Of a stretch of 32,501 nucleotides of DNA, positions 1,806 to 27,132 are shown in pieces; positions within the stretch are counted from its first letter, which is position 1; every line of letters starts with the position of its first letter. The notes below the pieces were generated by a model. The model saw nothing but the letters and a program-made list of their open reading frames with translations. It ran no database searches and had not been told where the DNA came from. This DNA is from a virus. The stretch covers positions 1-32,501 of the IMG/VR virus record IMGVR_UViG_3300044645_001385. The stretch is one strand, 5' to 3'. Both the position numbers and the translations under genes were made by a program.

Positions 1806-3891
1806 GCTTCCGCCCCTTCCGCTTCGGCTTGCCGTAGGAGCTCTCCTCAACCGGCGGCGGCTCGGGGAGCGGGTCGATCTTCGTGAGCGTGCTCACCTTG
1901 TGACCGACTTGCGTCTCGGTCGCCCGCCACCCGCCGCTCACCTCTTCGTAAAGCGTGATGAGGGCGGCGGGATCTTCCTCGGTTGCGTCGATCGTGAAAT
2001 CGGTGCCGGGGATGTCCAGCGTGCCGTAGTCCATCACATGGTCGATCCGCCCGCGAGCACGACCGCCCGACGAATCCCACGAAACGAAGTCACCCTCCGC
2101 GACCGCACCCGGTGCGGCACGCTGCTCGCTACGAATGAACTGAGGCGAATCGTCCACCCACACGTCAACGGCGATCCCGGCCGCCTGGGCCGCATCGTCC
2201 TTGAGCGTGTCACTACCCACGAGCAGCACGTCGGAGAAAGCCTCGGCGTAGTCGCCGAGAGATGAGATCACCTCCTCTCGATCCGCCTCGGGCCTGCGAG
2301 AAATCATCACGACACGATTCCCGTCCGCGACCGCCTTGCGGGCGAACTCGCCCCAGAGCCGAGGATCGGCAGAGAACGTCCGGTCGAAATCGACGCTGAT
2401 CGTCATCGCACGGCTCGCGGGGAGCGAGGCCGCGAGGGGCTCGGGGGTGAGGGGCTGCGCGACCGGCTCGGGGGAGGCAGGCTCGGGCTGCTTCACCACC
2501 ACGCCCGCGAGGATCGCGTCAATCATCGCCTCGGGCGTCTGCGGGAACGAGACCATCAGCAACGCCTTCGCACCTTCCAAGGTCAGCGAGCCGCTGCGGT
2601 ACTGGTCGAGCACCTCGATTACCGTGGGGGCGTCTGCCGGCGTCGCCGCCGGCTCTTCGACCGTCACGATCTCCTCGACCACCGCCGGCTCCTCGACCAC
2701 CTGGGCCGCCTTATCGAGCGTGGTCATGTTGAGTTGCACGAACCTGACATCGCCGCTTTCGACCGGGTTCAGATTCTCCAGTGAGCGGATCTCGTTCACG
2801 CTCAACACGCCAAGGTTCCACATCGTGTTGTAGTAGCTCGACCGACCCGCAGCGTCAGCCCGCAGCACGCCACGAGTGTCGAACTCCGCGAAGTATTCGT
2901 CATCGCCTTCCAAGAGATCGCGGGCGATCGAAGACTCGATGCGACGCAGATACGGCATCAGCCCGTTCGTCAGGAAGTCGAGCGATTGCTGTTCGATATT
3001 CGAGAACGACGAACGCGTGAGGTCGCCCACGAGATGCGGCGGCACGCCGAAGAGGCGGCACACTTCTTCGACTTGGAAGCGGCGAGCCTCAAGAAACTGG
3101 CTCTCTTGGTTGTTCCCGCCGAGTTCCGAAACTTTGAGCCCCCCCTGCAGCACCGCCGTTCGGTTGCTGCGATCCGCCCCGCGATGGGCTCGCTCCCACT
3201 GGTTCCGCGTGTTCTCGGCTGCCTCCGGCGAAAGCATCTGATCGGTGGACAAGATCACCCCAGGCCGGGCACCATTCCCGAAGAACGTCGCCCCGTGGAT
3301 CTCGCACGCCCGAGCCAGCCCGATCGCGTCGCGGGCGAGCTCGATCGTGCTCATCCCGTTCACGCCGTCATCCGACATCCCACGCACCGACATCACCGCG
3401 TCTTGCGTGTAGACCGTCGATGATCCCGACGCTTCGCGGTACGTGTACCGCAGCCGGTTGTTTTCGAGTTGCTCGGTCTTCACCCGGCTCGGGTGCAGCG
3501 GCACGATCTCGCTGATCGTCCCCCCGCTGTAGACCTTCTCATCGAGAGCGAACCCATGCGAGAGCAAGTGCAGCATCATCTGCTCTCGCCACTCGAAGCT
3601 CGTCTGCCATGAGTTCGGCTGCGTGTGCAGGATGCGATAGAGCGGATGCTCGCGGGCGATCTCTTTCCCGCCACCCGGCAGCCGGCGGTAGAGATGCAGC
3701 GGGAGCCCCGCGACGCTGGTCGAGAGTACGCGGATGCACGCGAGCACGACCGTCGATCGCAACGCGGTCTCGGCGTCCACCTTCACGCCCGACGGGTTGC
3801 GGTTGCCGCCAGCCCAGCCGCCCGACTCATAATCCCAGTTGCGAGAGTCTTCGCCGGGGAGCCACAGGATGCGAGCGTTTGGGGAGATCAT
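1798..3891 (-). CDS. Portal protein with C-terminal HAD-like and TUDOR-like domains
   Basis: Dodecameric portal through which DNA enters the head. The start at 3891 forms an ATGA overlap with the TerL stop. The 697-residue product is far longer than typical HK97 portals (roughly 400-450). Residues 1 to ~410 are the portal core ('NPSGVKVDAETALRSTVVLA', 'VCRLFGVPPHLVGD', 'SSFSNIEQQSLDFL'). A Glu/Pro/Ala-rich linker follows, then a short helical segment ('LDQYRSGSLTLEGAKALL'). Residues ~496-588 are HAD-like: 'MTISVDFDRTF' carries the DxD nucleophile motif and 'VDVWVDDSP' the late acidic motif. Residues ~597-673 resemble a DUF2945/TUDOR fold ('GDFVSWDSSGGRARG', 'VGHKVSTLTKI'). The tail is Lys/Arg-rich. 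The HAD activity is inferred from motifs only. Confidence 0.93.
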   Translation of the reverse strand: MISPNARILWLPGEDSRNWDYESGGWAGGNRNPSGVKVDAETALRSTVVLACIRVLSTSVAGLPLHLYRRLPGGGKEIAREHPLYRILHTQPNSWQTSFEWREQMMLHLLSHGFALDEKVYSGGTISEIVPLHPSRVKTEQLENNRLRYTYREASGSSTVYTQDAVMSVRGMSDDGVNGMSTIELARDAIGLARACEIHGATFFGNGARPGVILSTDQMLSPEAAENTRNQWERAHRGADRSNRTAVLQGGLKVSELGGNNQESQFLEARRFQVEEVCRLFGVPPHLVGDLTRSSFSNIEQQSLDFLTNGLMPYLRRIESSIARDLLEGDDEYFAEFDTRGVLRADAAGRSSYYNTMWNLGVLSVNEIRSLENLNPVESGDVRFVQLNMTTLDKAAQVVEEPAVVEEIVTVEEPAATPADAPTVIEVLDQYRSGSLTLEGAKALLMVSFPQTPEAMIDAILAGVVVKQPEPASPEPVAQPLTPEPLAASLPASRAMTISVDFDRTFSADPRLWGEFARKAVADGNRVVMISRRPEADREEVISSLGDYAEAFSDVLLVGSDTLKDDAAQAAGIAVDVWVDDSPQFIRSEQRAAPGAVAEGDFVSWDSSGGRARGRIDHVMDYGTLDIPGTDFTIDATEEDPAALITLYEEVSGGWRATETQVGHKVSTLTKIDPLPEPPPVEESSYGKPKRKGRKRG

Positions 3892-5525
3892 ATGAGCAGG
3901 ATGGAGGGTTCTGTGGCTGGCCCTTGGGCCGCTGTCGATGAATGGATGCCCAAGGCCATGACCAGGGCGACGATCCCGTCGATTCGCTCGTTCGACTTCG
4001 CCTTGCTCGGCTTGATGTTTCCGTTGTGGTCGTGCTGTATCGCCACGTTGCCCGCCTGCCACGCCAAGACCGGATGACCGCCGTGCAGCAACTTGCCCGA
4101 CACGGTGAGCGATTCCAGCACTTTCGCGGGGCCGCTCATCGAGCTATAGCCCTGTCCGTAACCTACAACGCTTATGCCGTCTCCTTGCAGTTGATTGGCT
4201 AACTGCGTGGCGTTCCATCGGTCGATTCCGATCTGGCGAATGTTGTATTTCTTCGCCAGTTGGTTGATGTCGGCCCGCACTTGATCGAAGTCAGTGACGT
4301 TCCCCGGCGTCAGGTGCAGATTCCCCTGCCTCGCCCAAACGTCATAGGAAACACGATCCCGTCGCACCCGCTCCCGCATGTTCTCCTCGGGAATCCAGAA
4401 GTGCGGCTCGACCCAGTACCGCCCCTCATCCAGCGGAAACAGCAACACGAAAGCCGTCGTGTCGAACGTGGTCGCCAAATCGAGCCCCGCCCAGCACTCC
4501 CGCTTGTCGAGCGAGACCGGGCACGGGGCATTGCCCTGCGCCCAGTGATCCATTCGCAACCAGCGAATGTCCTGCTCTGTCCACTGGTTCAGATAGAGTT
4601 GCCGAAAAGTGTTTTCGTATGCGGGCATCTCGACCGCCCGCGAGCACTCGCTCCGCAGGAAGTCCGAGTTCACCGAGACGCCGAGGTTCGGGTTCGCGAC
4701 GGCCCAGGTCTTTTCGTCCTTCCAATCGGCCTCCGGGGCGGCACAGAAGATCGCCGGCAGGAACCGATCGTCGGCGATGCCGCCCGACGCGACCGCCTCC
4801 GCGTACCTCCAGATTTCCCAACAAATGCTTTTCCGGTCATACCCCGCCGTCGTGATGTAGATCATGAGCGGCTGCGACCGAGCACCCATCGAAGTCGCCA
4901 TCACATCCACGAGTTCGCGGTTCGGCTGGGCGTGCAACTCGTCAAAGATCACGCCATGCGGGTTCAGCCCGTGCTGGATGCCAGCCTCGGCCGATAGTGC
5001 CTTGTAGGTCGCGTGCGTCTTTTCGCACACGATCGCGGAGCGGTAGACCTTCAGATGCTTCGACAGCACGGGCGACTGCTCGACCGCGATCCTTGCGGTA
5101 TCGAACACGAGCCGGGCTTGATCCCGCGACGCGGCACACGAATAGACTTCGCCGCCCGGCTCGGGTTCCATCAAGAGCTTGAGAGCCAGCCCGGCACAGA
5201 GCGTGCTCTTTCCGTTTTTGCGAGGCACCGCGAGCAGCGACGTTCGCACTTGCCGGCGACCGTCACGCTCGGCGAACAACGCCCGCACGTAGTCGCGTTG
5301 CCACGGTTCGAGCAGGAACGGCTGCCCGCCCTTCTCGCCCTTGGCGTGGGTGAAGAACTTCTCGAAGAACTTCACCGCCCGGCACGATGAGCAGTTGCAG
5401 TCATCCGAACAGGATGGCGGCGTCTTCGTCGTTTTCCGGCGTTTGCTCAATGGCCGAGACCCTGGCGAGTGCGGAGGCAGTGAGCCCGAACTCTGCTGCA
5501 AACTTGAGCATCTGGTTCCGAGCAT
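3888..5525 (-). CDS. terL: Terminase large subunit (packaging ATPase-nuclease)
   Basis: Motor ATPase and headful or site-specific nuclease for DNA packaging. Visible motifs, numbered from the ATG at 5525: Walker A 'VPRKNGKST' (100-108), Walker B 'GVIFDE' (191-196), coupling motif 'ITTAG' (224-228), and RNase-H-like nuclease acidic residues in 'WAGLDLATTFDTTAF' (D349), 'QIGIDRWNA' (D435) and 'RIDGIVALVMALG' near the end. A Cys cluster, 'CSDDCNCSSC' (39-48), precedes the ATPase domain. The start is uncertain: the 5525 ATG gives a 125-base overlap with TerS in another frame, while TTG at 5450 or GTG at 5375 would shorten it. The Cys cluster looks genuine and argues against the 5375 start. It ends in an ATGA overlap with portal. 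Confidence 0.95.
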   Translation of the reverse strand: MLGTRCSSLQQSSGSLPPHSPGSRPLSKRRKTTKTPPSCSDDCNCSSCRAVKFFEKFFTHAKGEKGGQPFLLEPWQRDYVRALFAERDGRRQVRTSLLAVPRKNGKSTLCAGLALKLLMEPEPGGEVYSCAASRDQARLVFDTARIAVEQSPVLSKHLKVYRSAIVCEKTHATYKALSAEAGIQHGLNPHGVIFDELHAQPNRELVDVMATSMGARSQPLMIYITTAGYDRKSICWEIWRYAEAVASGGIADDRFLPAIFCAAPEADWKDEKTWAVANPNLGVSVNSDFLRSECSRAVEMPAYENTFRQLYLNQWTEQDIRWLRMDHWAQGNAPCPVSLDKRECWAGLDLATTFDTTAFVLLFPLDEGRYWVEPHFWIPEENMRERVRRDRVSYDVWARQGNLHLTPGNVTDFDQVRADINQLAKKYNIRQIGIDRWNATQLANQLQGDGISVVGYGQGYSSMSGPAKVLESLTVSGKLLHGGHPVLAWQAGNVAIQHDHNGNIKPSKAKSNERIDGIVALVMALGIHSSTAAQGPATEPSILLI

Positions 5526-5859
5526 CCCGCTTGCGGAGCCATGCCGGGTGATTACTCACCCTACCCTTGTCGTCCATGATGGTCGTGCCGTTCGCCTGGA
5601 GCTCGCGGTCAGCCGTCACCATGTCGGCGAACGCGTCGCAGTACGCCGCGAGCGTCTGCTGATGTCGCGGGCTCATGACCTTCGACGCTTCAAGCATCGG
5701 GGCCACGCGATCCCACTCGGCACGGGCGGTCGGGCACATCCAATCCGGGGCCGGCGGCGAGCCCGGCGGGGCGTCGATGCCCGAGACGTGCGGCCCGCGA
5801 ATGCGGGAGCCCCGAAGCTTCAGGATCGGCTTTGGCGTCGGCTTTCGGCCCCGGCCCAT
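5401..5859 (-). CDS. terS: Terminase small subunit, P27-like
   Basis: DNA-recognition subunit of the packaging terminase. The 152-residue protein starts 'MGRGRKPTPKPILKLRGS', the basic GRxxKP N-terminus typical of P27-type small subunits. It continues with 'PPAPDWMCPTARAEWDRVAPML' and a helical domain ending in an acidic tail ('ENDEDAAILFG'). I chose the ATG at 5859 because AGGAAG lies about eight bases upstream; an ATG eight codons earlier lacks this. It lies directly upstream of TerL and overlaps its 5' end. Confidence 0.87.
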   Translation of the reverse strand: MGRGRKPTPKPILKLRGSRIRGPHVSGIDAPPGSPPAPDWMCPTARAEWDRVAPMLEASKVMSPRHQQTLAAYCDAFADMVTADRELQANGTTIMDDKGRVSNHPAWLRKRDARNQMLKFAAEFGLTASALARVSAIEQTPENDEDAAILFG

Positions 5860-5913
5860 TTTCAAACTTCCTATTTCAACCACGCGTACAGAGGCAGGAA
5901 CTTATGGTTTTCC

Positions 5914-9135: not shown

Positions 9136-9402
9136 TTATTCGGCGGGCTCCAGCCGTTCGACGGTCATCGTCTTCTCGCCCATCTTGGGCTGCAACGCGT
9201 AGAGCAGCCGCGTCTGCTCCTGCATCGCCTCGGCGATCTCGACTTGGGTTGTCGCGAGCTTGTCAAGAAACGCGGTGTGAGCCTTCACGAGCGGGAGCAG
9301 CACGTCCTGCCTCCCGACATAGAGGCAAGCCAACGCGACCACGGTCGCGAACCCGTAGTCTTTCAGCACCGAGAGGAGCGTATCCTTCGCCGCGTCAGTC
9401 AT
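9136..9402 (-). CDS. Single-pass membrane protein with coiled coil, possible holin-like
   Basis: An 88-residue protein with one predicted membrane segment near the N-terminus ('FATVVALACLYVG', about residues 18-30) followed by an amphipathic helix ('LVKAHTAFLDKLATTQVEIA', then 'EAMQEQTRLLYAL'). The ATG at 9402 makes an ATGA overlap with the preceding gene and has GGAG at good spacing. It belongs to a run of membrane or exported proteins downstream of the papain-like peptidase, so a holin or lysis-accessory role is plausible. No lysis family could be recognised by motif. Confidence 0.66.
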   Translation of the reverse strand: MTDAAKDTLLSVLKDYGFATVVALACLYVGRQDVLLPLVKAHTAFLDKLATTQVEIAEAMQEQTRLLYALQPKMGEKTMTVERLEPAE

Positions 9403-9758
9403 CGCGTGAGCTCCTGCTGCCAGACCAACATCCGCACTTTGTTCATCCGGCTTTCCATCCACCACCGGAGGATGAGTTGCACCACGATCGAGGCGACCGC
9501 CTGGAGCACGAGTGCCCAGAAGAATCCGTACTCCTGGGGCTCCTTGTCGCTCACGACTTGGTAGCCCCGCTTGACGCTCTTCAGCACTTGCTCGGTGACG
9601 ATGGCTTGCTGCTCGGGATCGACGGCGTGCGTGTACGCCTCAATCTCCCAGTGCTGCACCGCGAGCTCGGTGAGGTCATCAATCACCTGACGGCCCACGA
9701 GGTGCCGTCGGATGCCGACGTTCCGCCAGACCCAGAGCTTCAGATCCGCAACCGTCAC
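9399..9758 (-). CDS. Membrane protein of the probable lysis cassette
   Basis: The GTG at 9758 forms a GTGA overlap with the lipoprotein-like gene before it and is preceded by AAGGAG. The 119-residue protein is soluble-looking for about 75 residues ('VADLKLWVWRNVGIRRHLVG', 'LTELAVQHWEIEAYTHAVDP'). A long hydrophobic helix ('GFFWALVLQAVASIVVQLIL', about residues 82-101) and a basic C-terminus ('RWWMESRMNKVRM') follow. One membrane span with a positively charged tail fits an inner-membrane protein. Function unknown; the lysis role is suggested only by neighbours. Confidence 0.68.
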   Translation of the reverse strand: MTVADLKLWVWRNVGIRRHLVGRQVIDDLTELAVQHWEIEAYTHAVDPEQQAIVTEQVLKSVKRGYQVVSDKEPQEYGFFWALVLQAVASIVVQLILRWWMESRMNKVRMLVWQQELTR

Positions 9759-10063
9759 GAGTTGCACTCCTTGCACGGCACGAACGCGGCAGGATGGAGC
9801 ACCGACTTCTCCGCACCCTTCACACCGTCGCCGCCGCATTCGGGGCAAGGCATGACGATTCTTTGATCGCCGATCTTTCCGGTGCCGTTGCAGTTTTCAC
9901 AACGTCCCGCGTCGGGCGTGGGGGCGGGCGGTGCGGCTCGGCTGGCGATCACCATGCGGGCGGTCTCGACCGCGAGATCCGCCGAGATGCCTGGGTCGGT
10001 CGGCAGCGAAGCAACGCAGCCGATCGACGCGATCACGAACACGATGAGCCAGCGAATGTTCAC
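9755..10063 (-). CDS. Exported protein with DnaJ-type zinc finger repeats
   Basis: The GTG at 10063 overlaps the papain-like gene's TGA (GTGA) and has GAGGGG upstream. The 102-residue product starts with a signal sequence 'MNIRWLIVFVIASIGCVA'. The Cys at residue 16 could be a lipobox Cys, though 'ASIGC' is an imperfect box. The remainder carries CxxCxGxG-like knuckles, 'CENCNGTGKIG' and 'CPECGGDG', with a last 'CKEC' at the C-terminus, as in the zinc domain of DnaJ. An exported DnaJ-type zinc protein in a phage late operon is unusual. It may act as an outer-membrane spanin-like partner or a thiol chaperone; both are guesses. Confidence 0.68.
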   Translation of the reverse strand: MNIRWLIVFVIASIGCVASLPTDPGISADLAVETARMVIASRAAPPAPTPDAGRCENCNGTGKIGDQRIVMPCPECGGDGVKGAEKSVLHPAAFVPCKECNS

Positions 10064-10998
10064 AGAATCCCCTCTAGCCAATCGTTCGGGAGTGCGGTCG
10101 GCTTGAAGCCACTGAAGCCCGCGAGAGCGTAGGAATCGAGACCCTTACACATTGAGTCGATCACTTCGGCATCGACCCAACCCGCCGACCGTTGGAATGC
10201 CTCGGGCAACCGTTCATCCACTGCACCGGAGTAACAGTTTCCCCACGAGTTGGGCACAAGGATCGCGGGCCGATCCCATCTCAGGGAGCAGCCCGTCATG
10301 CAGTGCGCCCACTGCCCGGCAGGCGTGAGCCATCCGCCGCCGAGTGATCCGCGATCCGCGAACCTCATCGAGAACCCACGCATCGAGCAGAGAGCGACCG
10401 GGTAGCCATTACTGATCGCTTTTGCACAGTCATCGAATGACCGCACGAGCGTCACCTCGGAGCATCGCCTTTGCTTCGCGTAGGGCTCCAACTCATCCGG
10501 CATCCCATCGCGGCCCCACTGCTTCTCTTGCGTGCCGGTGAACTGGCGATCGAACCGGACGCTGCCGTATTGCTGGCCGTAGTGCAGCACGCCCCAATCC
10601 CGCACCGCCTTCGCGGCGTGGAATCCGGTCGAGCCGTCCCCGCCCGGTGCCGATGTGCGACCGCGAGCTTCGACCCGGCTCACGCCGTAGACGCTCGCCT
10701 CGATCGTGCGACCGCCCCAGGTCTCGGCTTCTTTGCGGAGCACGATGTCTGCCGCAGCCAGCACATCGCAACTCATCGCGAACCCCCAGCCGACGCAGCT
10801 ACCTATTGGCTGCGAGCCCCGCTTCCACGAGGGCGAGCACTGGAGGAGAGCCCGCTCCAGGTGAACGTCTTGCTTCGCCGCCTGGAGGTCAGGCCCAGCC
10901 TCGGCAAGCGTCGGGTGCGGCAGCGAAGCGACGAACGCCTCGGCCCCAGCGGGGTCGGGCGTGTAGCCCATCAACGGGATAAACGCCTCGCCCGCCAT
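10060..10998 (-). CDS. Papain-like (C1-type) cysteine peptidase
   Basis: A 312-residue protein with a papain-fold catalytic triad: Cys68 in 'QPIGSCVGWGFAMSCD', His232 in 'GQWAHCMTGCS', and Asn250 in 'AILVPNSWGNCY', where N-S-W-G is the classic C1 motif. There is no cleavable signal peptide, so release would need a holin-type pore or a place in the virion. It starts three bases after the preceding stop with a G-rich ribosome site, and ends in a GTGA overlap with the exported zinc protein. Position among small membrane proteins suggests an endolysin that cuts peptide cross-links. A capsid- or tail-associated protease, or an anti-defence protease, cannot be excluded. Family is confident, role inferred. 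Confidence 0.86.
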   Translation of the reverse strand: MAGEAFIPLMGYTPDPAGAEAFVASLPHPTLAEAGPDLQAAKQDVHLERALLQCSPSWKRGSQPIGSCVGWGFAMSCDVLAAADIVLRKEAETWGGRTIEASVYGVSRVEARGRTSAPGGDGSTGFHAAKAVRDWGVLHYGQQYGSVRFDRQFTGTQEKQWGRDGMPDELEPYAKQRRCSEVTLVRSFDDCAKAISNGYPVALCSMRGFSMRFADRGSLGGGWLTPAGQWAHCMTGCSLRWDRPAILVPNSWGNCYSGAVDERLPEAFQRSAGWVDAEVIDSMCKGLDSYALAGFSGFKPTALPNDWLEGIL

Positions 10999-11001
10999 CG
11001 C

Positions 11002-11610
11002 TCACCCCCCGTTGACGCCAGCCCATGCCACGGCTTTCGCAAACGCGGCGTAACGGTCGCGGATGTCGCGAGTGACCGGAACCTCGTCGGTGCCCACTGC
11101 CGCCCCGTAGGCGGCTTCCAGAGCCTTCCGCAGCGGCTCGTTTTCGCCCGGCTCGTGCTGCCCGATCCGCCGCCATGCGATGTCGAGGGCCAGCCCCGTG
11201 AACGCCTGGAGGCTACGGGTATCGGTGAACGCCGCCTCGCGGGCGGTCGCATCGCCAGCCACCACGACCGCAGCCTTGCTCCACGTTGAAGCCCAGAGCA
11301 TCCGATCCCCAGCGGGCAGCGACCGCAGGGCGGCAGCGACGGGGGCGACGAACGTCTTCATCTCGGCACTCGGCTCCTCGACCGTCACGGCAGGCACGGC
11401 GGGCACCTCGAACGTCGGCAGCGGGATCTTTCCCCACGCTGCCGCCACGATCAGCCCGGCGGCGGCGATCCGCCCGAGGGTGTGGGCGTGGGCCTGGGCG
11501 GCGGCGACTGCCGCTTGGAGAGCATCAGCCACCACACGCCAATACGGCGCGGCCAAGATCGCCACGGCTGCCCCGACTGCGAGGGTGCGTAGGAGTGTTT
11601 CACGATCCAT
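11002..11610 (-). CDS. Membrane protein with two N-terminal spans, possible holin
   Basis: The ATG at 11610 overlaps the preceding TGA (TGATG). The 202-residue product has two hydrophobic segments in the first 80 residues ('TLAVGAAVAILAAPYW' and 'IAAAGLIVAAAWGKI'). An Ala/Val/Pro-rich spacer and a soluble helical C-terminal domain ('RRIGQHEPGENEPLRKALEA', 'RDIRDRYAAFAKAVAW') follow. It lies immediately before the papain-like peptidase, the usual place for a holin or endolysin helper. It is longer than classical holins, so assignment stays tentative. Confidence 0.68.
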   Translation of the reverse strand: MDRETLLRTLAVGAAVAILAAPYWRVVADALQAAVAAAQAHAHTLGRIAAAGLIVAAAWGKIPLPTFEVPAVPAVTVEEPSAEMKTFVAPVAAALRSLPAGDRMLWASTWSKAAVVVAGDATAREAAFTDTRSLQAFTGLALDIAWRRIGQHEPGENEPLRKALEAAYGAAVGTDEVPVTRDIRDRYAAFAKAVAWAGVNGG

Positions 11611-11909
11611 CACTTCACGCCCGCGAGCCCGAGGCAGAATCGAATCAGGTCTTCGCCTTCCTTCGTGGTGGCGACGGCGGCGAGCTTCCGCACGAGTTGA
11701 TCGTCCACCTCGCTGTCGGTCTTGCTCGCAAGCCACTCAGCCGCCTCGCCCACGATCAAGCCCTTCTGGTACGGGTCGATCGTCTGCACGAACTTCTGCC
11801 CATACGCGAGCAGCGGGCTCCACGTTTGCAGCAGGCGGATCGCCTGCCAGATGTTGAGCGTGTTGCCGTACTCGGCCGCCTCGGCGGCGGTCATCTCATA
11901 CGCGGGCAT
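11610..11909 (-). CDS. Unknown 99-residue protein
   Basis: Start chosen at 11909, where GGAG lies nine bases upstream; an earlier in-frame ATG lacks a ribosome site. The mostly helical sequence begins 'MPAYEMTAAEAAEYGNTLNI' and includes 'TWSPLLAYGQKFVQTIDPYQ', with weakly hydrophobic stretches but no clear membrane span. The stop overlaps the next start (TGATG). No family recognised. It is co-translated with the probable lysis genes. Confidence 0.66.
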   Translation of the reverse strand: MPAYEMTAAEAAEYGNTLNIWQAIRLLQTWSPLLAYGQKFVQTIDPYQKGLIVGEAAEWLASKTDSEVDDQLVRKLAAVATTKEGEDLIRFCLGLAGVK

Positions 11910-14368: not shown

Positions 14369-15065
14369 GGTCAGCCCTCCGCACTTCCTGCCACGCCTCG
14401 GGCTGCGGCCCGTCGATGTCATCGGCGGTGACCGCCACGCGGTGATGCTCGGTATGCCACTCCGCACTGGGCACATGCGTGCCCTGCTCTGCCCCGATGT
14501 TCTGAATCCGCGAGACCGTGGGGAACGCTTCGTATCGCCCGGCCCGTAGGGCGTGGTTCACGATCACATCCCACGAGGTCGAATCGTCACGAATCCACCC
14601 GAGGTGCAGTCCGAGCCACCGATCCCGCCAGACGCCCCAGCCCCACGGGGTGAACCAGCGACGCAGCCCGCACTCGCCGAGCCGACCGTTGCTCACCCGC
14701 TGGTAGCCCGAGACGTTCATCACGGATGGATCGTCGCGATAGTGATCGCGAGCCCACCGGAACCACCGCAGGCAGTCCCGCGTCGGCACCGTGTCATCCT
14801 CGAAGTGAACGTGGAAGTCGCTCTCCATCTGGTTGAACCCGAACGCGAGGGCATTGCGGATCGCCCGGTTGCAACCGACCCGCTCGGGATACGTGCCCGA
14901 CTCGAAGCCGTACCGAGCCGCGAGAGCGGCTGAGTGAACCGATGCCTCCGACGGGTCGATCAGCACCATCGCCCGGCAGTCGGCGATCCCGTCGCATTCA
15001 CGCAACGCCGCGAGCGTCTGCTCTAGGTACGCCGGGCGGTTGTATGCCGAGACCGTGATGTTCAC
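14352..15065 (-). CDS. Glycosyltransferase family 2-like protein
   Basis: A 237-residue GT-A-type transferase. 'MNITVSAYNRPAYLEQTLAA' is the N-terminal strand-loop-helix, 'GCNRAIRNALAFGF' the middle region, and 'DFHVHFEDDTVPTRDCLRWF' holds the metal-binding ED(D) motif. 'SVMNVSGYQR' and 'RWFTPWGWGVWRDRW' match family patterns seen in GT2 and GNT-I-like enzymes, and 'TSWDVIVNHALRAGRYEAFP' ends the catalytic domain. The GTG start at 15065 overlaps the radical SAM gene's stop (GTGA), with GAGGAG ten bases upstream. Target unknown: virion protein, phage DNA or host surface are all possible. Confidence 0.82.
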   Translation of the reverse strand: MNITVSAYNRPAYLEQTLAALRECDGIADCRAMVLIDPSEASVHSAALAARYGFESGTYPERVGCNRAIRNALAFGFNQMESDFHVHFEDDTVPTRDCLRWFRWARDHYRDDPSVMNVSGYQRVSNGRLGECGLRRWFTPWGWGVWRDRWLGLHLGWIRDDSTSWDVIVNHALRAGRYEAFPTVSRIQNIGAEQGTHVPSAEWHTEHHRVAVTADDIDGPQPEAWQEVRRADRADHD

Positions 15066-16804
15066 GAGTTGCGGAGCTCCTCGGCCAGCATCGCGAACCG
15101 CTTGTTGCCGTCGGTGTGCATCTCGGCATTCGCGTCCAAGCTCGCCCCTTCATAGGCATCGAGGTGCCCGGCAGTTCGCAGCGTGTGCAGCGGCGTGCCT
15201 TCGATCTCGGCGGTACCCGAGAGTTGATGCGAGTCGAGGGGAAGCGACTCGATGAACCGCACCGTGTCTTGCATCTGCTCGCGAGTCTCGCCGGGCAGCC
15301 CGACCGTGAACGTGCCGTGAACGGTCATCCCGATCCGCTTGAGTTCATGCACCACCTCGCGGGCGTACTCCAGATCGAGGTGCTTGTTCACGATCTTGTC
15401 GACTACGTACTGGTTGCCGCTCTCGAATCCGAGCTTCACGCCGAAGCAGCCCGACTCCTTCATGAGCGACCACGTTTCCATCTTGCTCGTGTCGGCCCGG
15501 CACATCGCCGACCACGGCACGCCAACTCGCCGCATGACCTCGCACATCTTCACGACGTGCGAGTTGCCGAGATTGAACGTGTCATCGTCGAAGTAGATCG
15601 ACTGATACCCGTAGTCACGCACGAGCCCGGTTAGGTAGGGCTCCATGTACTCGGGCGAGTAGTGCCGAACCTTGCGGACGTTTGTGCCGTCGGGATCGTT
15701 CCCCGTCATCGCGGCAGGCCACACGCAGAAGCAGCAGTTTTTGACGAGCACGTCGTTCGCGTAGAAGACTCCCGTATCGGGAACCTCCATGCAGTACGTG
15801 TCGTGCAGGCCCGGCAGTTCCTCGACTGCTAGGGTGCGAACGTAAACCTTCCCTGAGACGCGGACGCATTGCATCTCAGGAGAGAGATGCGACGCCTCGA
15901 TTAGTTGACTGTTTTCTCCGTAGTTCCAAACTACGAACCGATGATCGGGAGTGCAGTCGATGTGCGACCCGTCATCGAAGTGAACCCGCACGAGCTTCTG
16001 GTTCTCGCCGGTCTTGGCGATGACTCGGGGCGTCGAGATCTTCGCCCGTTTCGCCTCGCGGTCATACGTGAAGACTCCGACATCGGTGCGGCCCACAAGA
16101 TCGCGGATCGGCACCATGCCTTCGACCGTGTTCACGAGCGTGTCGCCCGCGAGGCACTTGTACGGACATCCCCGGCTCGACCACACATGAGCGTGTGGGT
16201 ACTGCTGCCCGATCGGGTTGTAGTCGAAGTAGCGGTGAGCGATCTCCGCATCCATCCACGGCGGCGGTGCTGCGTTCATCTCCGCGAGCGTGAGCAAGTC
16301 GAAGTCAATCACGCCGCTCCCCCCCTCGATCACCTTCACCGCGTTCTTTTCGTACTCCCCTCGGAGGCACGCGTGAACCGGCAGCGTCGATAGGATCTCG
16401 TCGCTCTTCGTGGTCGTGATCGGCCCGGCGATGACGATCTTCGCCGCGGGCAGCACGTTGTGGATCATCTGCACGAGTTGCGAATCGTGCTGCCAACTCG
16501 GTGTTGCCGTCTCGATCACTACGATGTCGAACTTCCCGACCGCGAGGTAGTCGGCGTAGGTCTGGTAGCTCTCTCGCAGGGCGATCGAATCGCGGAACCG
16601 AACGTCGGCGGTCGTGTTCGCCGCTGCGTAGGTCGCGGCGTACCCTAGAAAAAATGGGTAGGGCAAATAGCCCCCGAACTTGAACTCGCCCGGCATGGAG
16701 TTGGCGGCCATAGTGAACGGCCACCGTGAGCCTGCCCGCACGCCGCAGCGGAGGTACTGCTCGGAGACATCCCACCACGGCGGATTCGAGAACAGAACCT
16801 TCAC
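15062..16804 (-). CDS. B12-binding-type radical SAM enzyme interrupted by a mini-intein
   Basis: A 580-residue precursor. Residues 1-190 resemble a cobalamin-binding/Rossmann N-domain of BchE-type enzymes ('MKVLFSNPPWWDVSEQYLRC', 'KFDIVVIETATPSWQHDSQL', 'KIVIAGPITTT'). The radical SAM motif begins 'SSRGCPYK' (209-216), is broken by a 140-residue intein (217-356), then resumes 'CCFCVWP'. Splicing restores CPYKCCFC, that is CxxxCxxC for the 4Fe-4S cluster. The barrel continues with 'YQSIYFDDDTFNLGNSHVVK', 'GCFGVKLGFESGNQYVVDKI' and 'GTFTVGLPGETREQMQDTVR'. The mature enzyme would be 440 residues. The substrate is unknown; flanking glycosyltransferases suggest a sugar or nucleotide modification. 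It ends in a GTGA overlap with the GT2 gene. Confidence 0.92.
   Translation of the reverse strand: MKVLFSNPPWWDVSEQYLRCGVRAGSRWPFTMAANSMPGEFKFGGYLPYPFFLGYAATYAAANTTADVRFRDSIALRESYQTYADYLAVGKFDIVVIETATPSWQHDSQLVQMIHNVLPAAKIVIAGPITTTKSDEILSTLPVHACLRGEYEKNAVKVIEGGSGVIDFDLLTLAEMNAAPPPWMDAEIAHRYFDYNPIGQQYPHAHVWSSRGCPYKCLAGDTLVNTVEGMVPIRDLVGRTDVGVFTYDREAKRAKISTPRVIAKTGENQKLVRVHFDDGSHIDCTPDHRFVVWNYGENSQLIEASHLSPEMQCVRVSGKVYVRTLAVEELPGLHDTYCMEVPDTGVFYANDVLVKNCCFCVWPAAMTGNDPDGTNVRKVRHYSPEYMEPYLTGLVRDYGYQSIYFDDDTFNLGNSHVVKMCEVMRRVGVPWSAMCRADTSKMETWSLMKESGCFGVKLGFESGNQYVVDKIVNKHLDLEYAREVVHELKRIGMTVHGTFTVGLPGETREQMQDTVRFIESLPLDSHQLSGTAEIEGTPLHTLRTAGHLDAYEGASLDANAEMHTDGNKRFAMLAEELRNS
15737..16156 (-). other. 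Mini-intein coding segment inside the radical SAM gene
   Basis: Encodes precursor residues 217-356. Block A is 'CLAGDTLVNTVEGMVPIRDL' (Cys nucleophile at position 1). Block B is 'DGSHIDCTPDHRFVVW', with the usual T..H. Block F/G is 'TYCMEVPDTGVFYANDVLVK' plus terminal Asn, followed by extein Cys. At 140 residues there is no room for a homing endonuclease. The residue before the terminal Asn is Lys rather than the usual His, and the block F His also appears replaced, so C-terminal cleavage chemistry may be atypical. Confidence 0.9.
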
Positions 16805-18056: not shown

Positions 18057-18463
18057 CACGAAATCCGCACGGTCGTGCGGCCCTCCGTTCCGTAACTTTT
18101 TTCCAGCACGAGCCGCGAGACCTGCGAATCGTCATCCCACGCGACGCCGTTCAGCGAATCGAGTACGCCCTTGGCGCAGTTGTCGAGGTCGGCTCGCGGC
18201 AGAACTGGGGCTCCTGCTCGGAGCCCGGTCTTGCGGAGGTGTGACTTGGGGCGAGCGAACACAAAGTCGATCACGACGTTGACCGGCTCGGGGTGCGACT
18301 CGCAGCCGGCGGCCTTCGCCGCCTGGGCCACCGCCTGCCGGTACGCGTGAACCGCGTGGGTCTTCGGCACATACGCCCGGCCGAACCCGCCCACGGTCGA
18401 GACGCGGGCTCGGGGCTGGGGCACGGGGTCGCCGGGTACGGAGAACGCTATCGCGGTTGGCAT
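18056..18463 (-). CDS. rusA: RusA-family Holliday junction resolvase
   Basis: A 135-residue endonuclease that cuts branched DNA during recombination and before packaging. Family signatures: 'FSVPGDPVPQPRARV' at the N-terminus and the acidic catalytic cluster 'PRADLDNCAKGVLDSLNGVA', followed by 'WDDDSQV'. Length is normal. It overlaps the end of the protease gene by 16 bases and the next gene by TGATG. It pairs functionally with the Sak4-like recombinase and SSB encoded upstream. Confidence 0.93.
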   Translation of the reverse strand: MPTAIAFSVPGDPVPQPRARVSTVGGFGRAYVPKTHAVHAYRQAVAQAAKAAGCESHPEPVNVVIDFVFARPKSHLRKTGLRAGAPVLPRADLDNCAKGVLDSLNGVAWDDDSQVSRLVLEKSYGTEGRTTVRIS

Positions 18464-19233
18464 GAGGCGAGGTTGCAGGGCGTGTCAAGTTCGCCCGCGA
18501 CTTCGCGAATCCAATCGAGATACAACGCCACGCGGGTATGCCCGCTCTCCTCACCGACCTGAGACCGAACCGGCGACTTGCCGACCTTCGCCGTGTAGGA
18601 GTTCACACCCACCAGCACGGTGCGACCATCCGACGCCCGTGCCCAGAGCGGCCCGCCGGAGTCACCGGGGGCGATACAGAACGGCAGCGGGCTGCCGCCT
18701 CGCTGGATCTTGCACACCCATACGCTCTTTTCGATCGCGGTCAGTCGCATCGTGCCCGCTCGGATCTCGTTGTCGCCTGTCGCGAAGCCCGCCGAGAGCC
18801 TCCCCGTCACGCCGTAGCCCGCTGCGGTGCAGACTTCACCGAGCCGCTCGCTGCCGTCACTCAGCGGCGGATACCACGCAAGCTCGAACGGCCGGGCCAC
18901 ATGCACGAGGGCGATGTCGTGCTCGGCAAACTCACCCGCGTATTCGCGGTAGGCGAACGTCTGGTCGATCCGGTGATGCCCGGCCGCAGTCCACACGCCG
19001 CACTCGGTCATATCCTTGATCACATGGGCGGCGGTCAGAGCCCAGTGAGGCGAGATCAGCGTGCAAGTGCCGACCTGGGGATTGCCGTCGGTGTTCGTGC
19101 CCACGAGGCGACACGTATACGCGGCGAACGTCTCGCCGTACTGACGGTAGCGGGCGTCGGGGATACCGTCCTCGATGGTGCCAGCGGCAACCACCGCACA
19201 CCACGCGGCGAATACCAGCCACAATCCCCGCAT
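18448..19233 (-). CDS. Secreted trypsin-like serine protease (S1 family)
   Basis: A 261-residue protein with signal peptide 'MRGLWLVFAAWCAVVAAG' and a complete S1 triad: His70 in 'HWALTAAHVIKD', Asp106 in 'EHDIALVHVARP' and Ser192 in 'CIAPGDSGGPLWA'. Several cysteines (41, 57, 78, 135, 174, 186) could form disulfides outside the cytoplasm. The mature protein would start near 'GTIEDGIPDARYRQYGETFA'; 'I-x-x-G' is not an exact trypsin activation site. Exported chymotrypsin-fold proteases are rare in phages. A role in superinfection, host-surface cleavage or lysis is possible. It overlaps rusA. No ribosome site is evident before the ATG. Confidence 0.9.
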   Translation of the reverse strand: MRGLWLVFAAWCAVVAAGTIEDGIPDARYRQYGETFAAYTCRLVGTNTDGNPQVGTCTLISPHWALTAAHVIKDMTECGVWTAAGHHRIDQTFAYREYAGEFAEHDIALVHVARPFELAWYPPLSDGSERLGEVCTAAGYGVTGRLSAGFATGDNEIRAGTMRLTAIEKSVWVCKIQRGGSPLPFCIAPGDSGGPLWARASDGRTVLVGVNSYTAKVGKSPVRSQVGEESGHTRVALYLDWIREVAGELDTPCNLASCQPR

Positions 19234-19804: not shown

Positions 19805-20983
19805 TCACTCAGCCATCGGCATGATGATCGTGCGGCAATGGTCGCCGCACCGGAGCACGACCGCCGACTGCGGATCGACCGCTTCGAGCCGCACCGTCTC
19901 TGCGAGATCGAACGAGCCGCACGCCAGCCACTGCGACGCGAATCGCGGATCGATCCTGACCGTCACCGGCTGCCCCGCCGTCACGAGATCGCAGTGAACC
20001 TGCGCCTGCCCGGTCTCGGCAGCCTGGGCCGCGAGGTCGATGCCGTCAGGCGTCACCGTCAACGTGACGCTCTTGCTGCTCTCGCTCGTGCAGATTTCCG
20101 CCATGCGGATCGCATGGAGGAGATCGCCGATCACCGCCGTGCTCGCGGGCACGTCGTGCTTCTGGTCAACGTCACGCCACCGAGGGAACCGGCCCTCAGT
20201 CAGCCGAGCGTGGAGAGTCGTGCCCGTCACGCCCGTCTCCTCGTCATACGTGCCGACGATCGCAACGAACTCGGTGTCGGTCGCGAGCATCTGCACCGCC
20301 TCGCCCCCGCCCGCGAGCCGCACCAAGGCGGCGATCGCCCGCGAAGGCACCAGCGTCTGCGAGTTGTCGAGATCCTGACTCGCGACCTCGGCAGCCGCCA
20401 CGCTCATTCGCCGCCCGTCGGTCGCGATGAACGAGATCAACCCGGTCTCGGAATCCGCCTTGCCCCGCTCAAACTCCACGCACACCGCCCCGAGGGCGTA
20501 GCGGCTGCTCTCGGTGTCGGTCGAGAACCGCACCGCGTTCACGAGGCTCACCAACTGATCCGCCGGCAGCCGGCCGATGCTCGTGCCGCCCGTGGCGGTC
20601 GCGGGGGGGAACTCGGCGGCATCCTCGACGGGAATCGTCCACTCGCCCCCGCGAGCCTCGATCTTGCACTTCGTCCCGTCGGCGGTGATGTGAACCGCAT
20701 CGGTCGGGTGCAAGGTCGAGACGATCGCCTTCAGCCGGGCGAACGGCAGGAGCATCGCCGGGCCGGTCGCCTCGGGCAGCGGCACTGAAATCCGCAGTTC
20801 GAGGTCGGTGCCCGTCAGGTGCCCGTCGGCGAGCAGTACGTTCTGGAGCACCGGCTTCGGGCTGCGGCTGGGCACCGCCGGCTCGACTTCACGAATCGCT
20901 CGGGCGAGCGTCGCGGCGTTGAGGCTTATGCCACCAGTTCGGCTCTTGCGAGACTTTGCGGGCTTTGTTGCGGTCGCGGTCAT
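19805..20983 (-). CDS. dnaN: DNA polymerase III beta subunit (sliding clamp)
   Basis: A 392-residue ring-forming processivity clamp. Clamp-like blocks are 'VPSRSPKPVLQNVLLADG' (start of domain 1), 'LTGTDLELRISVPLPEATGP', 'SSRYALGAVCVEFERG', 'LISFIATDGRRMSVAAAEV' (domain 2), and the C-terminal strand ending 'RTIIMPMAE', which corresponds to the bacterial 'yvIMPmr' end. AAAGGA lies upstream of the ATG. Its 5' end overlaps a small membrane-protein gene by 95 bases in another frame. No phage polymerase is visible in the window, so the clamp probably recruits host enzymes. Confidence 0.92.
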   Translation of the reverse strand: MTATATKPAKSRKSRTGGISLNAATLARAIREVEPAVPSRSPKPVLQNVLLADGHLTGTDLELRISVPLPEATGPAMLLPFARLKAIVSTLHPTDAVHITADGTKCKIEARGGEWTIPVEDAAEFPPATATGGTSIGRLPADQLVSLVNAVRFSTDTESSRYALGAVCVEFERGKADSETGLISFIATDGRRMSVAAAEVASQDLDNSQTLVPSRAIAALVRLAGGGEAVQMLATDTEFVAIVGTYDEETGVTGTTLHARLTEGRFPRWRDVDQKHDVPASTAVIGDLLHAIRMAEICTSESSKSVTLTVTPDGIDLAAQAAETGQAQVHCDLVTAGQPVTVRIDPRFASQWLACGSFDLAETVRLEAVDPQSAVVLRCGDHCRTIIMPMAE

Positions 20984-24537: not shown

Positions 24538-24719
24538 CGGGTCTCCTCCGAGAGCAGCCTCTTGTCTAGGTGTTCGTTGACATCGCGAAGGCACCGGCAG
24601 AGTGAGAGCAGTCGCCGGTTCTCTTCGCGGAGCCGTTCGTTCTCGGCCTCCAGCGACTCGGCGAGTTGCCGCAGATCGCGGGAGGGACGGGGCCGGAAAA
24701 GCGAGAGGAGCCAGTTCAT
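24534..24719 (-). CDS. Small coiled-coil protein (61 residues)
   Basis: ATGA overlaps both with the PAPS-reductase-like gene and with the winged-helix gene. The product has an aromatic N-terminus 'MNWLLSLFRPRPSRDLRQLA' and a long heptad helix 'LEAENERLREENRRLLSLCR'. The first residues could touch the membrane. Similar in style to the coiled-coil protein at 22423-22680. Function unknown. Confidence 0.64.
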   Translation of the reverse strand: MNWLLSLFRPRPSRDLRQLAESLEAENERLREENRRLLSLCRCLRDVNEHLDKRLLSEETR

Positions 24720-25993
24720 GCCACGGCCTCCGCGTCGAAGAGTCGCCGTTGCGCCCGCTCCTGCCGTTTCCGCTCTTGCTCTTGCCGCTTGGCTTCCGCA
24801 CGGCGAGCATCACGCAGCCGGATGTACGTTCCGTAGGCTTCCGACTTTGGCTGCGTCTGCCCGAGCCCCTTGCACCAGTAGTCGTTCCGCAGGAGCACCT
24901 TGCACATCCGCCGCCAAGACGGTGCCCAGCACTTCGACTCCAACTCGGGCGGTGCTTCTTCGGGGATGCCCGTGTAGCCCCGCTGGTGCCAGCCCCAGAT
25001 GAACTTCTTGAACCGGGCCGCGTAGTGGTCGCGAGTCTTCTTCGGCATGGTCTGCAACAAGAGGTTGCAGAACGACTTCCACGTATGCCCCTCGGGCTTC
25101 GTGATCTTGTGGTAGCCGTTGATGTTGCCTTTCTCTTCGATGTAGAGCGATCCGCTGTTCGCGCCGTTGACGCGGGCCACGAGCTTGAACCACGTCTGAG
25201 GCTCAAGAATGTGATACAGCCAGAGCCCGCGTCGCTGGTCATCGCCGAACGGCTGGCAGAGCCGTTGCTGCGAGAGCTTCACGCCCGCTTGATTCATGCG
25301 GTCGTAAATGTTGTTGTGCGGCTTGTCGGGATGCTTGGCGTGATACCGCCAAATATCCTCGGTCAGCCAATCGTAGATCGGGTAGACGTTGAACACGCGA
25401 TCCACGATGTTCGTTGTCCACCGCCGCCCGCCGAACGTCTTGCCTCGCTTCTCCCAGGTCGCAATCGCACAGTAGCGGTGCAGGCTTTCTTGCGCCCGAA
25501 TGCCGATAAACCCGGCAGTGAGCTCGCCTTGCCCGTACCACTCGCCGAATAGAACGATAAACTCCTCGAACTCCATGCCAGCCACGGCAAACGGGTAGTC
25601 GCGTTCTGTCCTGCAAGCCATCGGCTTGTCGCGAACCCATGCCTCCCGCTTCGTCTCATCCCAGCACGTCCACCTGGGCTCGTAGTTCGTCACCGCGTTA
25701 CGAAGCAGCATCGGCATACAGATCCAATGCGGGTCGATGTTGTCGCGGTAGAGGTGGAACATCTCATCTATGTGGGCAATCGTGTCGGCGTACTGAGCCT
25801 CGAAGTCGATGAACATCACCGCGACCTTGCGACCCCGCTTGATGGCCTCCTCCATCACGAGGTGCATCATCACGCTCGAATCCTTGCCGCCGCTGAACGC
25901 GACGTAGATTCGAGGGAAGTTGTCGAAGGTCTCGGCGATGCGTCGCCTTGCGGCCGTCAGCACGTCGATGTCGCTGAATCTCTTGACGCCCAT
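24716..25993 (-). CDS. PAPS-reductase-family (IbrA-like, DUF3440) protein
   Basis: A 425-residue protein with the PP-loop 'YVAFSGGKDSSVMMHLVM' (residues 30-47) that binds an adenylated substrate in PAPS reductases, DndC and related enzymes. 'VAVMFIDFEAQYADTIAHID', 'WDETKREAWVRDKP' and 'GFIGIRAQESLHRY' follow. The C-terminal half ('HKITKPEGHTWKSFCNLLLQ', 'RFKKFIWGWHQRGYTGIPEE') matches DUF3440 of IbrA, a prophage-linked regulator of E. coli. The TAATG junction couples it to the ParB-like gene, the same pairing as ibrB-ibrA. No Fe-S Cys pattern of classical PAPS reductase is obvious. Reaction unknown; roles in gene control or DNA modification/anti-defence have support only by analogy. Confidence 0.88.
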   Translation of the reverse strand: MGVKRFSDIDVLTAARRRIAETFDNFPRIYVAFSGGKDSSVMMHLVMEEAIKRGRKVAVMFIDFEAQYADTIAHIDEMFHLYRDNIDPHWICMPMLLRNAVTNYEPRWTCWDETKREAWVRDKPMACRTERDYPFAVAGMEFEEFIVLFGEWYGQGELTAGFIGIRAQESLHRYCAIATWEKRGKTFGGRRWTTNIVDRVFNVYPIYDWLTEDIWRYHAKHPDKPHNNIYDRMNQAGVKLSQQRLCQPFGDDQRRGLWLYHILEPQTWFKLVARVNGANSGSLYIEEKGNINGYHKITKPEGHTWKSFCNLLLQTMPKKTRDHYAARFKKFIWGWHQRGYTGIPEEAPPELESKCWAPSWRRMCKVLLRNDYWCKGLGQTQPKSEAYGTYIRLRDARRAEAKRQEQERKRQERAQRRLFDAEAVA

Positions 25994-27132
25994 TAGTAAA
26001 TCTCCATCTCGCGGTCGGGAGCGGCGGTGCTCATGTCCACCGGCTTGCGACCATTTGCTTTTAGCCACTTGTTCAGAGCCGCCAGGGCCGCAGCATTCGC
26101 TGCTTCTTGCTGGTCGCTGGTCAGCAGGTAGAAGCCGCCGCGATAGGTCGCAGGGATGCCGATGGCGTAGCACGCCGCCGCTTGCCCCAGCCATGCAATG
26201 CGGTTCATGGCAGCGTTGGTCAGGTAGTGCTCACACGAGTTCTTCCACTTCGTGATGACGCCTCGCAACGCTTTCTTGAACGCAGGGATGTCGGCCAGGA
26301 GATCCCGCATTGCGGCTTCGCATTCCGCTTTGTTCATGCCTTCCTTGGTGGTGGCGTAGAACCCTGCCTTGTGGCACTCCCACTTGTCGTAGGTATGGAA
26401 GATGCGACCTTCGTCGGACGTGTTGACAGTGCGAAAGCCAGCGGTCTCGTCTTCCCCGTAGCTCTGAACATCGTCGGTCAGTTCGGCGAAGTCGGCCTCA
26501 GTGACCGAGCCTTCAACGTCCCACGATTTTGAGAACTCTTGATCGGTGAATAGTTCCGCTAGTCCGCTGATCTGGCAGAGCCGCAGGATCTCGTCTTGAT
26601 CCATGCCGAGCTCGCGGCCGATCTTTTCGTCTGCCCAGTTGCGACGCTTCAGCTCGATCACGATGTCGCTCATCGCCGACACCGCGTGCTTGCCGCGAGC
26701 CCGGTTGTGCCGGATCGTCGAAGCGATGCGGTCGCCGCGATCCTGTCGCTCGGTGTTGATGATCGTGAGGGGAAGGTAGCCGCGAATCCGCTGCCGAACC
26801 TCCATGCACTCGCGGCCTACGCGGTTGCGGTGGAATCCGTCTACGACTTCGTGGACGTATTCACGCTTCCACGAGACGATCGGCTGCGTGTATCCGTCTT
26901 CGAGGATGGACAACTTGAGCAGTTCCATCTCTGGCGGCGCGACGCTGTTCGGGTTGTAGTCGTTCGCCTGGATGTTCTCAGTGTGAATCCACTGAATGCA
27001 GTCCACAGGCTCCCGCTTGAACGGGCCTGCGTCGTGCATCATCCGCCGAGCGGCATTGAGTTCCTCGACTTGCTGGGCAAGTGGCAGTCGCTCTAACTGC
27101 TTGCACCAATCGGCAATGAAATCAAGCATCAT
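25993..27132 (-). CDS. ParB/sulfiredoxin-like (IbrB-like) protein
   Basis: A 379-residue protein with a ParB N-terminal fold: 'NIQANDYNPNSVAPPEMELL', 'LSILEDGYTQPIVSWKREYV' and 'EVVDGFHRNRVG', the ParB-type GxxR-like nucleotide loop. An HTH-like region 'DIVIELKRRNWADEKIGREL', then 'GMDQDEILRLCQISGLAELF', follows. The long C-terminal domain ('TYDKWECHKAGFYATTKEGM', 'AWLGQAAACYAIGIPATYRG') is not part of plain ParB. The ATG at 27132 has GGAG upstream. No parA is nearby, so plasmid partition is unlikely. The partner is the PAPS-reductase-like protein. Confidence 0.88.
   Translation of the reverse strand: MMLDFIADWCKQLERLPLAQQVEELNAARRMMHDAGPFKREPVDCIQWIHTENIQANDYNPNSVAPPEMELLKLSILEDGYTQPIVSWKREYVHEVVDGFHRNRVGRECMEVRQRIRGYLPLTIINTERQDRGDRIASTIRHNRARGKHAVSAMSDIVIELKRRNWADEKIGRELGMDQDEILRLCQISGLAELFTDQEFSKSWDVEGSVTEADFAELTDDVQSYGEDETAGFRTVNTSDEGRIFHTYDKWECHKAGFYATTKEGMNKAECEAAMRDLLADIPAFKKALRGVITKWKNSCEHYLTNAAMNRIAWLGQAAACYAIGIPATYRGGFYLLTSDQQEAANAAALAALNKWLKANGRKPVDMSTAAPDREMEIY

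Follow-up and report, generated by a model that had tools for sequence, protein, structure and literature searches.

The window analyzed here is a stretch of 32,501 bases of the IMG/VR virus record IMGVR_UViG_3300044645_001385, from an uncultured phage; its genes lie on the minus strand and include a cluster of six short genes arranged around a papain-like cysteine peptidase. The cluster begins with g11610 (11610-11909, minus strand), the first gene coupled to the cassette, which encodes a soluble protein of 99 amino acids with a weak match to phrog_402 (E 2.6e-4). It is followed by tm2 (11002-11613, minus strand), encoding 203 amino acids with one or two N-terminal transmembrane spans and a conserved soluble C-terminal domain, and by the C1A papain-like cysteine peptidase itself (10060-10998, minus strand; 312 amino acids), which has no N-terminal signal or anchor. 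The next gene encodes a lipoprotein-like protein of 102 amino acids with a zinc motif of the CxxCxGxG type and a Pro/Ala-rich linker (9755-10063, minus strand); its matches to PF15777 and PF00684 are below the curated cut-offs. The last two genes encode tm9399, a tail-anchored protein of 119 amino acids with one C-terminal transmembrane span and a basic tail (9399-9758, minus strand), and tm9136, a small single-span protein of 88 amino acids (9136-9402, minus strand), in which an N-terminal transmembrane span precedes a helical tail that reads by eye as a coiled coil. The tail-anchored protein matched no Pfam family at E <= 1, and the sole Pfam match of tm9136 was at chance level; the latter is a candidate holin-like protein, presumably akin to the BhlA/YvrJ-type small proteins. 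The initial annotation had described five of these genes as linked throughout by GTGA/ATGA overlaps. The junctions read from the sequence agree with this at 10060-10063 (GTGA), 9755-9758 (GTGA) and 9399-9402 (ATGA), but tm2 and the peptidase are separated by a gap of 3 bp (10999-11001), and the sixth gene, g11610, is coupled upstream by a further GTGA (11610-11613).

Relatives of the peptidase were collected by five scans of viral contigs with the window protein, two alignments and two divergent members as queries, two of the scans covering the best 80 of 165 and the best 80 of 267 relatives. After identical sequences and fragments of 280 amino acids or fewer were dropped, the set, here called type A, comprised 116 sequences including the window, no two of which have the same last 250 residues. 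These analyses revealed that the cassette is a six-gene coupled unit with a fixed order, and that its arrangement is conserved far beyond chance. The gene order was constant in all 105 loci holding all six genes, and the zinc-motif, tail-anchored and small transmembrane proteins were found in 116 of 116 distinct loci. Where there was upstream room, tm2 was present in 108 of 109 loci (the sole miss, L004, being a start-picking artefact, since tm2 was found there in another scan) and g11610 in 97 of 97. g11610 and tm2 were both found in 105 loci and overlapped by 4 bp in 83 of these; the zinc-motif and tail-anchored genes overlapped by 4 bp in 115 of 116, and the tail-anchored and small transmembrane genes by 4 bp in 80 and by 8 bp in 28 of 116. 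Counted over 83 sources, consisting of 82 loci (one being the window's own copy) and the window, the peptidase and zinc-motif protein occurred in 83, each of the two small transmembrane proteins in 82 and tm2 in 81; homologues of LamG and TerL occurred in 33 and 54, respectively, some loci being too short for every gene. All type A loci were fetched by their peptidase, and the counts therefore indicate that the partners travel with the peptidase, while the frequency or ubiquity of the cassette is not to be read from the 116.

One transmembrane span was predicted in the tail-anchored protein in 116 of 116 loci and in the small protein in 114 of 116, in agreement with the initial annotation, which had named two single-span membrane proteins. 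For tm2, described there as a two-span protein, membrane spans were confirmed, but the second is weak in the window copy; by the hydropathy cut-off, two spans were counted in 59, one in 48 and none in 2 of 109 loci. Two or more CxxC motifs occur in the zinc-motif protein of each of the 116 loci, and 101 of these proteins have one transmembrane-like hydrophobic span at the N-terminus. A lipobox-like motif was found in 86 of 116 under a loose definition and in 55 under a strict one, and the protein, which had been called an exported DnaJ-zinc protein, thus retains its zinc motif but is lipoprotein-like rather than simply exported. When a spanin pair was looked for, the lipoprotein-like zinc-motif protein and single-span partners were found to occur together, with the strict lipobox in only those 55.

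At E <= 1 the peptidase matched neither a Pfam nor a PHROGs family; it had no meaningful sequence match in the PDB and no match among 50,697 phage records, and named phages gave no match with the type A peptidase or with the type B and pPLIM01 peptidases (see below) as query. The sole recurrent weak papain-like match was Peptidase_C39_2, obtained for 5 of 13 relatives (best E 0.11) and 6 of 62 (best E 0.09). Membership of the NlpC/P60 or CHAP families was considered and rejected at the sequence level, as PF00877 and PF05257 were absent from the Pfam matches of the window protein at E <= 1 and from the ten families listed for the 62 relatives. An earlier structural model on 13 close sequences was poor (predicted local distance difference test score, pLDDT, 49.5), which was solved by an alignment of 62 sequences, giving an AlphaFold2 model with a pLDDT of 88.0 and a predicted template modelling score (pTM) of 0.89. 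Foldseek comparison of this model with the PDB returned 220 matches at E <= 0.001, of which the 50 listed were all papain/cathepsin-type chains, with xylellain of Xylella fastidiosa (3ois) at the top (E 3.9e-11), followed by cathepsins and papain. Xylellain, a C1A peptidase, has the closest solved fold (VIA-align Z 20.6 over 241 residues, root-mean-square deviation 3.1, the alignment extending into the N-terminal extension), but it is not a phage protein, has no lysis setting and shares only 14% identity. The same fold is found in Cwp84, an S-layer-associated cysteine protease of Clostridioides difficile that acts on cell-surface protein (4ci7; Z 17.0); it differs in being a multidomain host enzyme, with 15% identity. 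No NlpC/P60 or CHAP fold was among the PDB rows listed by Foldseek and VIA-align. In BFVD, the top row, at E 2e-9, was an uncharacterised protein from an uncultured tailed phage; several rows were named Peptidase C1, and giant-virus cathepsins were also present. One phage protein (E 1.4e-5) bore the name 'Peptidoglycan binding-like', and weak rows (E 2e-3 to 1.4e-2, template modelling scores 0.21-0.25) carried the names Lysin A, Lysozyme or Endolysin.

The modelled peptidase has, then, a C1A (papain) fold that is too diverged for sequence models. Gln63, Cys68 and His232 are present in 116 of 116 unique homologues and Asn250 in 115, with one gap, and Cys68-His232-Asn250 together with Gln63 are predicted to form the catalytic set; the four residues stand in the papain order, with a motif resembling NSWG. 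The C1-type assignment and its Cys/His/Asn triad were therefore borne out, and the structural comparison proposed to separate NlpC/P60, CHAP and C1 pointed to a C1A proteinase fold among the matches listed. The first 45 amino acids are below the hydropathy cut-off in 116 of 116 type A peptidases, whereas past residue 45 the highest hydropathy, 1.95, exceeds the same cut-off, anchors being called by hydropathy only.

The genomic context places this peptidase in a position typical of lysis genes. From the start of the window to the cassette there are a truncated capsid gene and protease, portal, TerL, TerS, HNH and LamG-like genes, and past the cassette there are glycosyltransferase-like genes, a radical SAM gene, RusA, a beta clamp and replication genes; the cassette is thus flanked by RusA/glycosyltransferase genes on one side and by fibre-HNH-terminase genes on the other. 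Another lysin was sought in two relatives whose terminal overlaps or repeats indicate that they are essentially whole genomes: G001, of 46,891 bases with an exact terminal overlap of 123 bases, and G004, of 52,453 bases, in which 25-mers near the two ends match and TerL occurs at each end. No alternative lysis candidate was recognised in either. With genes called by a simple codon score, Pfam scans found no lysin family in 46 of the 66 called genes of G001, and no lysin among 25 of the 28 families matched by 35 of the 77 called genes of G004, for which the Pfam table gives families without assigning each match to its protein; the families found were capsid, connector, tail, integrase, helicase and similar ones. 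Six-frame searches of type A records found Amidase_2 in 0 of 19, and SLT, Phage_lysozyme, M23, NlpC/P60 (PF00877) and M15_4 in 0 of 24 each, and Amidase_2 and Phage_lysozyme were likewise missing from another 19 records, of which 12 are type B. Among 14 control genomes every six-frame search gave matches, from one genome (M15_4) to 10 (M23). In these searches, the earlier statement that no muramidase, amidase or transglycosylase is visible in the window holds for complete relatives too.

Since a protease cluster occupies the usual lysis slot and the searches turned up no conventional enzyme for cutting the wall, it is probably the protease that opens the host cell. We consider it reasonably probable that the cluster serves as lysis cassette in a group of tailed phages that appear to be temperate and whose hosts are probably Planctomycetota, and in which a C1A protease would replace the murein hydrolase. 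The initial annotation had gone further in naming the papain-like enzyme a possible endolysin: its fold, lysis-type position, gene coupling and lack of a rival lysin in these searches agree with a lytic role, but the fold points to a protein substrate. Within the material searched, neither an endolysin-holin pair elsewhere nor a virion-protein identity of the peptidase was found. In another explanation, the peptidase would belong to the virion or be linked to the fibres and act at entry as a surface depolymerase. Fibre, LamG and decoration-like genes do lie directly after the cassette in the window, in G004 and in the type B genome G027, but the partners are membrane-anchored or carry lipoprotein signals and the peptidases of type B and pPLIM01 are anchored, features that fit virion proteins poorly, and this explanation appears very unlikely.

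A second cassette, type B, whose membrane proteins are mostly unrelated to those of type A, was found in the same slot. A scan with the portal protein covered the best 80 of 213 relatives, and among 15 portal-related records tested, five matched the peptidase family, two of them being type A and three a distant form. A scan with this distant form gave 53 loci and 41 unique proteins of more than 300 amino acids, and Gln, Cys, His and Asn are kept in 41 of 41. In G027, whose ends overlap, the cassette is preceded by an HP-like gene and then a g11926-like gene, both identified by eye, and is followed by fibre-like genes, HNH, TerS, TerL and portal, and this type B genome therefore shares the genome plan of type A with the cassette in the same slot. 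Profile comparison of type A and type B gave a probability of 100 (E 2e-42) for the peptidases and of 96.4 for the zinc-motif proteins, the other component clearly common to both types; at type B loci the zinc-motif protein was found in 35 of 41. Comparison of tm2 with the type B protein c1013 was weak (probability 39, E 3e-4), and the remaining pairs of partner proteins, including tm9136 and tm9399 against type B membrane proteins, had profile probabilities below 5 each. In lysis modules, unrelated small membrane proteins interchange around a kept enzyme. By hydropathy, 36 of the 41 type B peptidases have an N-terminal hydrophobic span and none of the 116 of type A does; the anchor of four type B copies was measured and consists of 42% Ala/Gly/Ser/Thr. 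Of the 41 type B loci, 35 were found to encode a protein of 75 amino acids with two or three spans, and in 32 of these 35 its gene overlaps that of the peptidase by 4 bp. One such protein matched PF04226 with E 0.0027 and 18.4 bits, below the cut-off of 25.3; PF04226 is the transglycosylase-associated family, given as TC 1.E.43 among the putative holins of TCDB (PMC6281302).

A lead to the host came from a search of 72,556 plasmids with the type B peptidase, the one query on which this lead rests. The single match was pPLIM01 of the planctomycete Planctopirus limnophila DSM 3776 (L373, NC_014149.1; E 1e-6, 25.5% identity), a 37-kb replicon whose name does not occur in the literature searched. 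It carries TerL, portal, protease, capsid, tape measure and tail genes and integrases, and with head, tail and integrase genes together it looks like a phage-plasmid; a Pfam scan of 37 of its 54 annotated features found no lysin. The matching gene, PLIM_RS21800, is annotated as hypothetical and lies directly before HNH-TerL-portal. Its product has an N-terminal transmembrane span and keeps the Gln, Cys, His and Asn, with NVW where the other homologues read NSW, and profile comparison confirms its homology (probabilities 95.7 and 97.2; hidden Markov model E 2.5e-10). The following gene overlaps it by 4 bases and encodes a proline-rich product with a signal or transmembrane segment and with cysteines. 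Other host clues were sparse: the relatives of TerL, portal, beta clamp and trypsin belonged to mixed phyla, the integrase had no plasmid match, pattern searches of genome contigs matched their patterns yet gave no genome encoding a relative, and no tRNA gene was found in the nine stretches scanned. From the pPLIM01 match, Planctomycetota are probably the host phylum of the phage group.

Several results weigh against a lysis cassette of planctomycete phages as described above. Ten of the 15 portal-related records, contigs of 10-35 kb, lacked a C1 match, and one of the ten, G026, includes the pre-terminase region and has no cassette there. No wall-binding domain was recognised in the peptidase. 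The type A enzyme, being without an export signal, would need the help of a holin whose presence is conjectural, and the lipobox of the zinc-motif protein is strict in fewer than half of the loci. Many proteins of these genomes belong to no known family, and an unrecognised hydrolase could be among them. With regard to the host, the named phages whose TerL and portal come closest have hosts in other phyla, and for the two neighbours of PLIM_RS21800 no profile comparison with the partners of type A or type B exceeded a probability of 5%; with these unmatched neighbours and an identity of about 25%, we can only infer the host of the window phage. The sacculi of P. limnophila are reported to be lysozyme-sensitive peptidoglycan (PMC4432640), so that a protease by itself might not lyse such a cell.

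Alternatively, the genes may form an envelope-modifying or superinfection-exclusion module, in which the protease, the zinc lipoprotein and the membrane proteins would remodel or destroy receptors on the surface of cells that are infected or lysogenised, and lysis would depend on an unrecognised gene. The lack of a C1 match in ten of the 15 portal-related records would agree with a patchy occurrence of such a module. Lipoproteins and small transmembrane proteins are generally known to be frequent in such modules, lysogeny is suggested by integrases (PF00589 in G001, a homologue in G004 and those annotated in pPLIM01), and a trypsin-like gene also occurs in 10 of 83 sources. However, the ten records without the module are partial contigs, the module stands in the usual lysis place together with holin-like small proteins, and G001 and G004 are without any other recognised lysis candidate, all of which makes the exclusion module rather unlikely.

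If the cluster is a lysis cassette, the steps of lysis might be as follows. From its position, the cassette would be transcribed late, along with the genes for fibre, terminase and head, and the small single-span proteins and tm2 would, from their topology, insert in the inner membrane as a holin or holin partners. The signal-less peptidase of type A would cross the damaged membrane, while the type B and pPLIM01 peptidases, each with its own N-terminal anchor by hydropathy, may be exported in the manner of signal-anchor-release (SAR) endolysins. Once outside, an enzyme of this fold could cleave proteins on which the cohesion of the envelope depends, for example the protein-rich wall coat, the linkers between wall and outer membrane or possibly peptide stems. 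The zinc-motif lipoprotein, on the outer envelope, might aid disruption of the outer membrane, or dock or activate the peptidase.

Comparison with known systems shows where this arrangement is ordinary and where it departs. It resembles the S-R-Rz/Rz1 genes of lambda in its position before the terminase, its small overlapping genes, its small membrane proteins, its putative lipoprotein and its one soluble hydrolase, but here the hydrolase is a papain-type protease, the lipoprotein has a zinc motif, the gene order is another one and no muramidase, amidase or transglycosylase was found. The N-terminal anchor of the type B and pPLIM01 enzymes recalls the SAR endolysins P1 Lyz and R21, from which they differ in being proteases rather than lysozyme folds, and the type A copy in the window has no anchor at all. 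The classification of papain-like proteins groups phage lysins with NlpC/P60, CHAP and amidases (PMC10318531); CHAP, NlpC/P60 and the PeiW/PeiP enzymes mentioned there belong, like the window peptidase, to the papain-like superfamily and some are phage lysins, but they are different families and no Pfam sequence match links them to it. The nearest precedent met is archaeal: PeiR, likened here by description only, is reported as a lytic endoisopeptidase in the lysis module of a methanogen prophage (PMC2812497).

These precedents bear on the substrate. From the C1A fold, protein appears likelier than peptidoglycan, and the enzyme may thus not be an endolysin in the strict muralytic sense. In one form of the lysis reading, the C1A fold has been recruited for the stem peptides of peptidoglycan, and the enzyme would be a classical endolysin with an unusual fold. 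Its position and export logic would be the same, its NlpC/P60 and CHAP relatives are wall enzymes or phage lysins, and pseudomurein endopeptidases PeiW/PeiP are cited in the classification mentioned (PMC10318531). PeiR, moreover, lyses a pseudomurein host whose own PF00112 proteins are proposed to serve wall turnover (PMC2812497), and planctomycete sacculi are peptidoglycan (PMC4432640). However, the PDB fold matches listed are papain/cathepsin-type proteinases and no domain for wall binding was recognised, so that cleavage of stem peptides appears doubtful.

A bolder form of the lysis reading, advanced here tentatively and with less than even confidence, is that Planctomycetota phages lyse by proteolysis, a papain-type 'proteolytic endolysin' and its zinc lipoprotein dismantling envelope protein with no murein hydrolase involved, and delivery taking place through a holin in type A or by a signal anchor in type B and pPLIM01. 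The system would be categorically new only if lysis proves to be proteolytic; neither a C1A papain-type endolysin nor the lysis of a planctomycete by a phage is described in the literature searched. The planctomycete wall has been debated, and proteolytic lysis, if true, would show protein to be load-bearing in that envelope, would add a new enzyme class to phage lysis, would offer a tool for breaking these cells and would give a reason why standard annotation misses the lysin in this phage group. The related gene PLIM_RS21800 is in a cultured strain, which makes the idea directly testable.

Further observations concern other genes of the window and its relatives. A trypsin-like gene (18448-19233, minus strand; PF00089, E 1.8e-13) with an apparent signal peptide could encode a second envelope protease; it is present in the 10 of 83 sources mentioned above, some of the others being too short to show it, and in the complete genome G004, and on this count it was rejected as a second lysis protease. 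In G004, the region between cassette and terminase contains fibre-like genes and GDP-mannose dehydratase/epimerase genes (L223:2529-5705, L223:7072-8852). The terminase genes (3888-5883, minus strand, in the window and at the same place in relatives) are swapped between close relatives: L002 and L005 have 37% identity in TerL and 27-30% in TerS with the portal still at 85-86%, and L003 has 99% in both TerL and TerS and 89% in the portal. A phage-encoded beta clamp of DNA polymerase III is located at 19805-20983 (minus strand). At 24716-27132 (minus strand), a PAPS-reductase/DUF3440 gene adjoins a gene that reads as ParB-like, without a Pfam match at E <= 0.001, a pair that we take to resemble IbrA/IbrB. 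Finally, the radical SAM gene (15062-16804, minus strand), which matches PF04055 and, below the cut-off, PF14890, contains a mini-intein at residues ~218-355 that interrupts the CxxxCxxC cluster motif; its relative in L004 is without the insert and that in L051 has a longer one.

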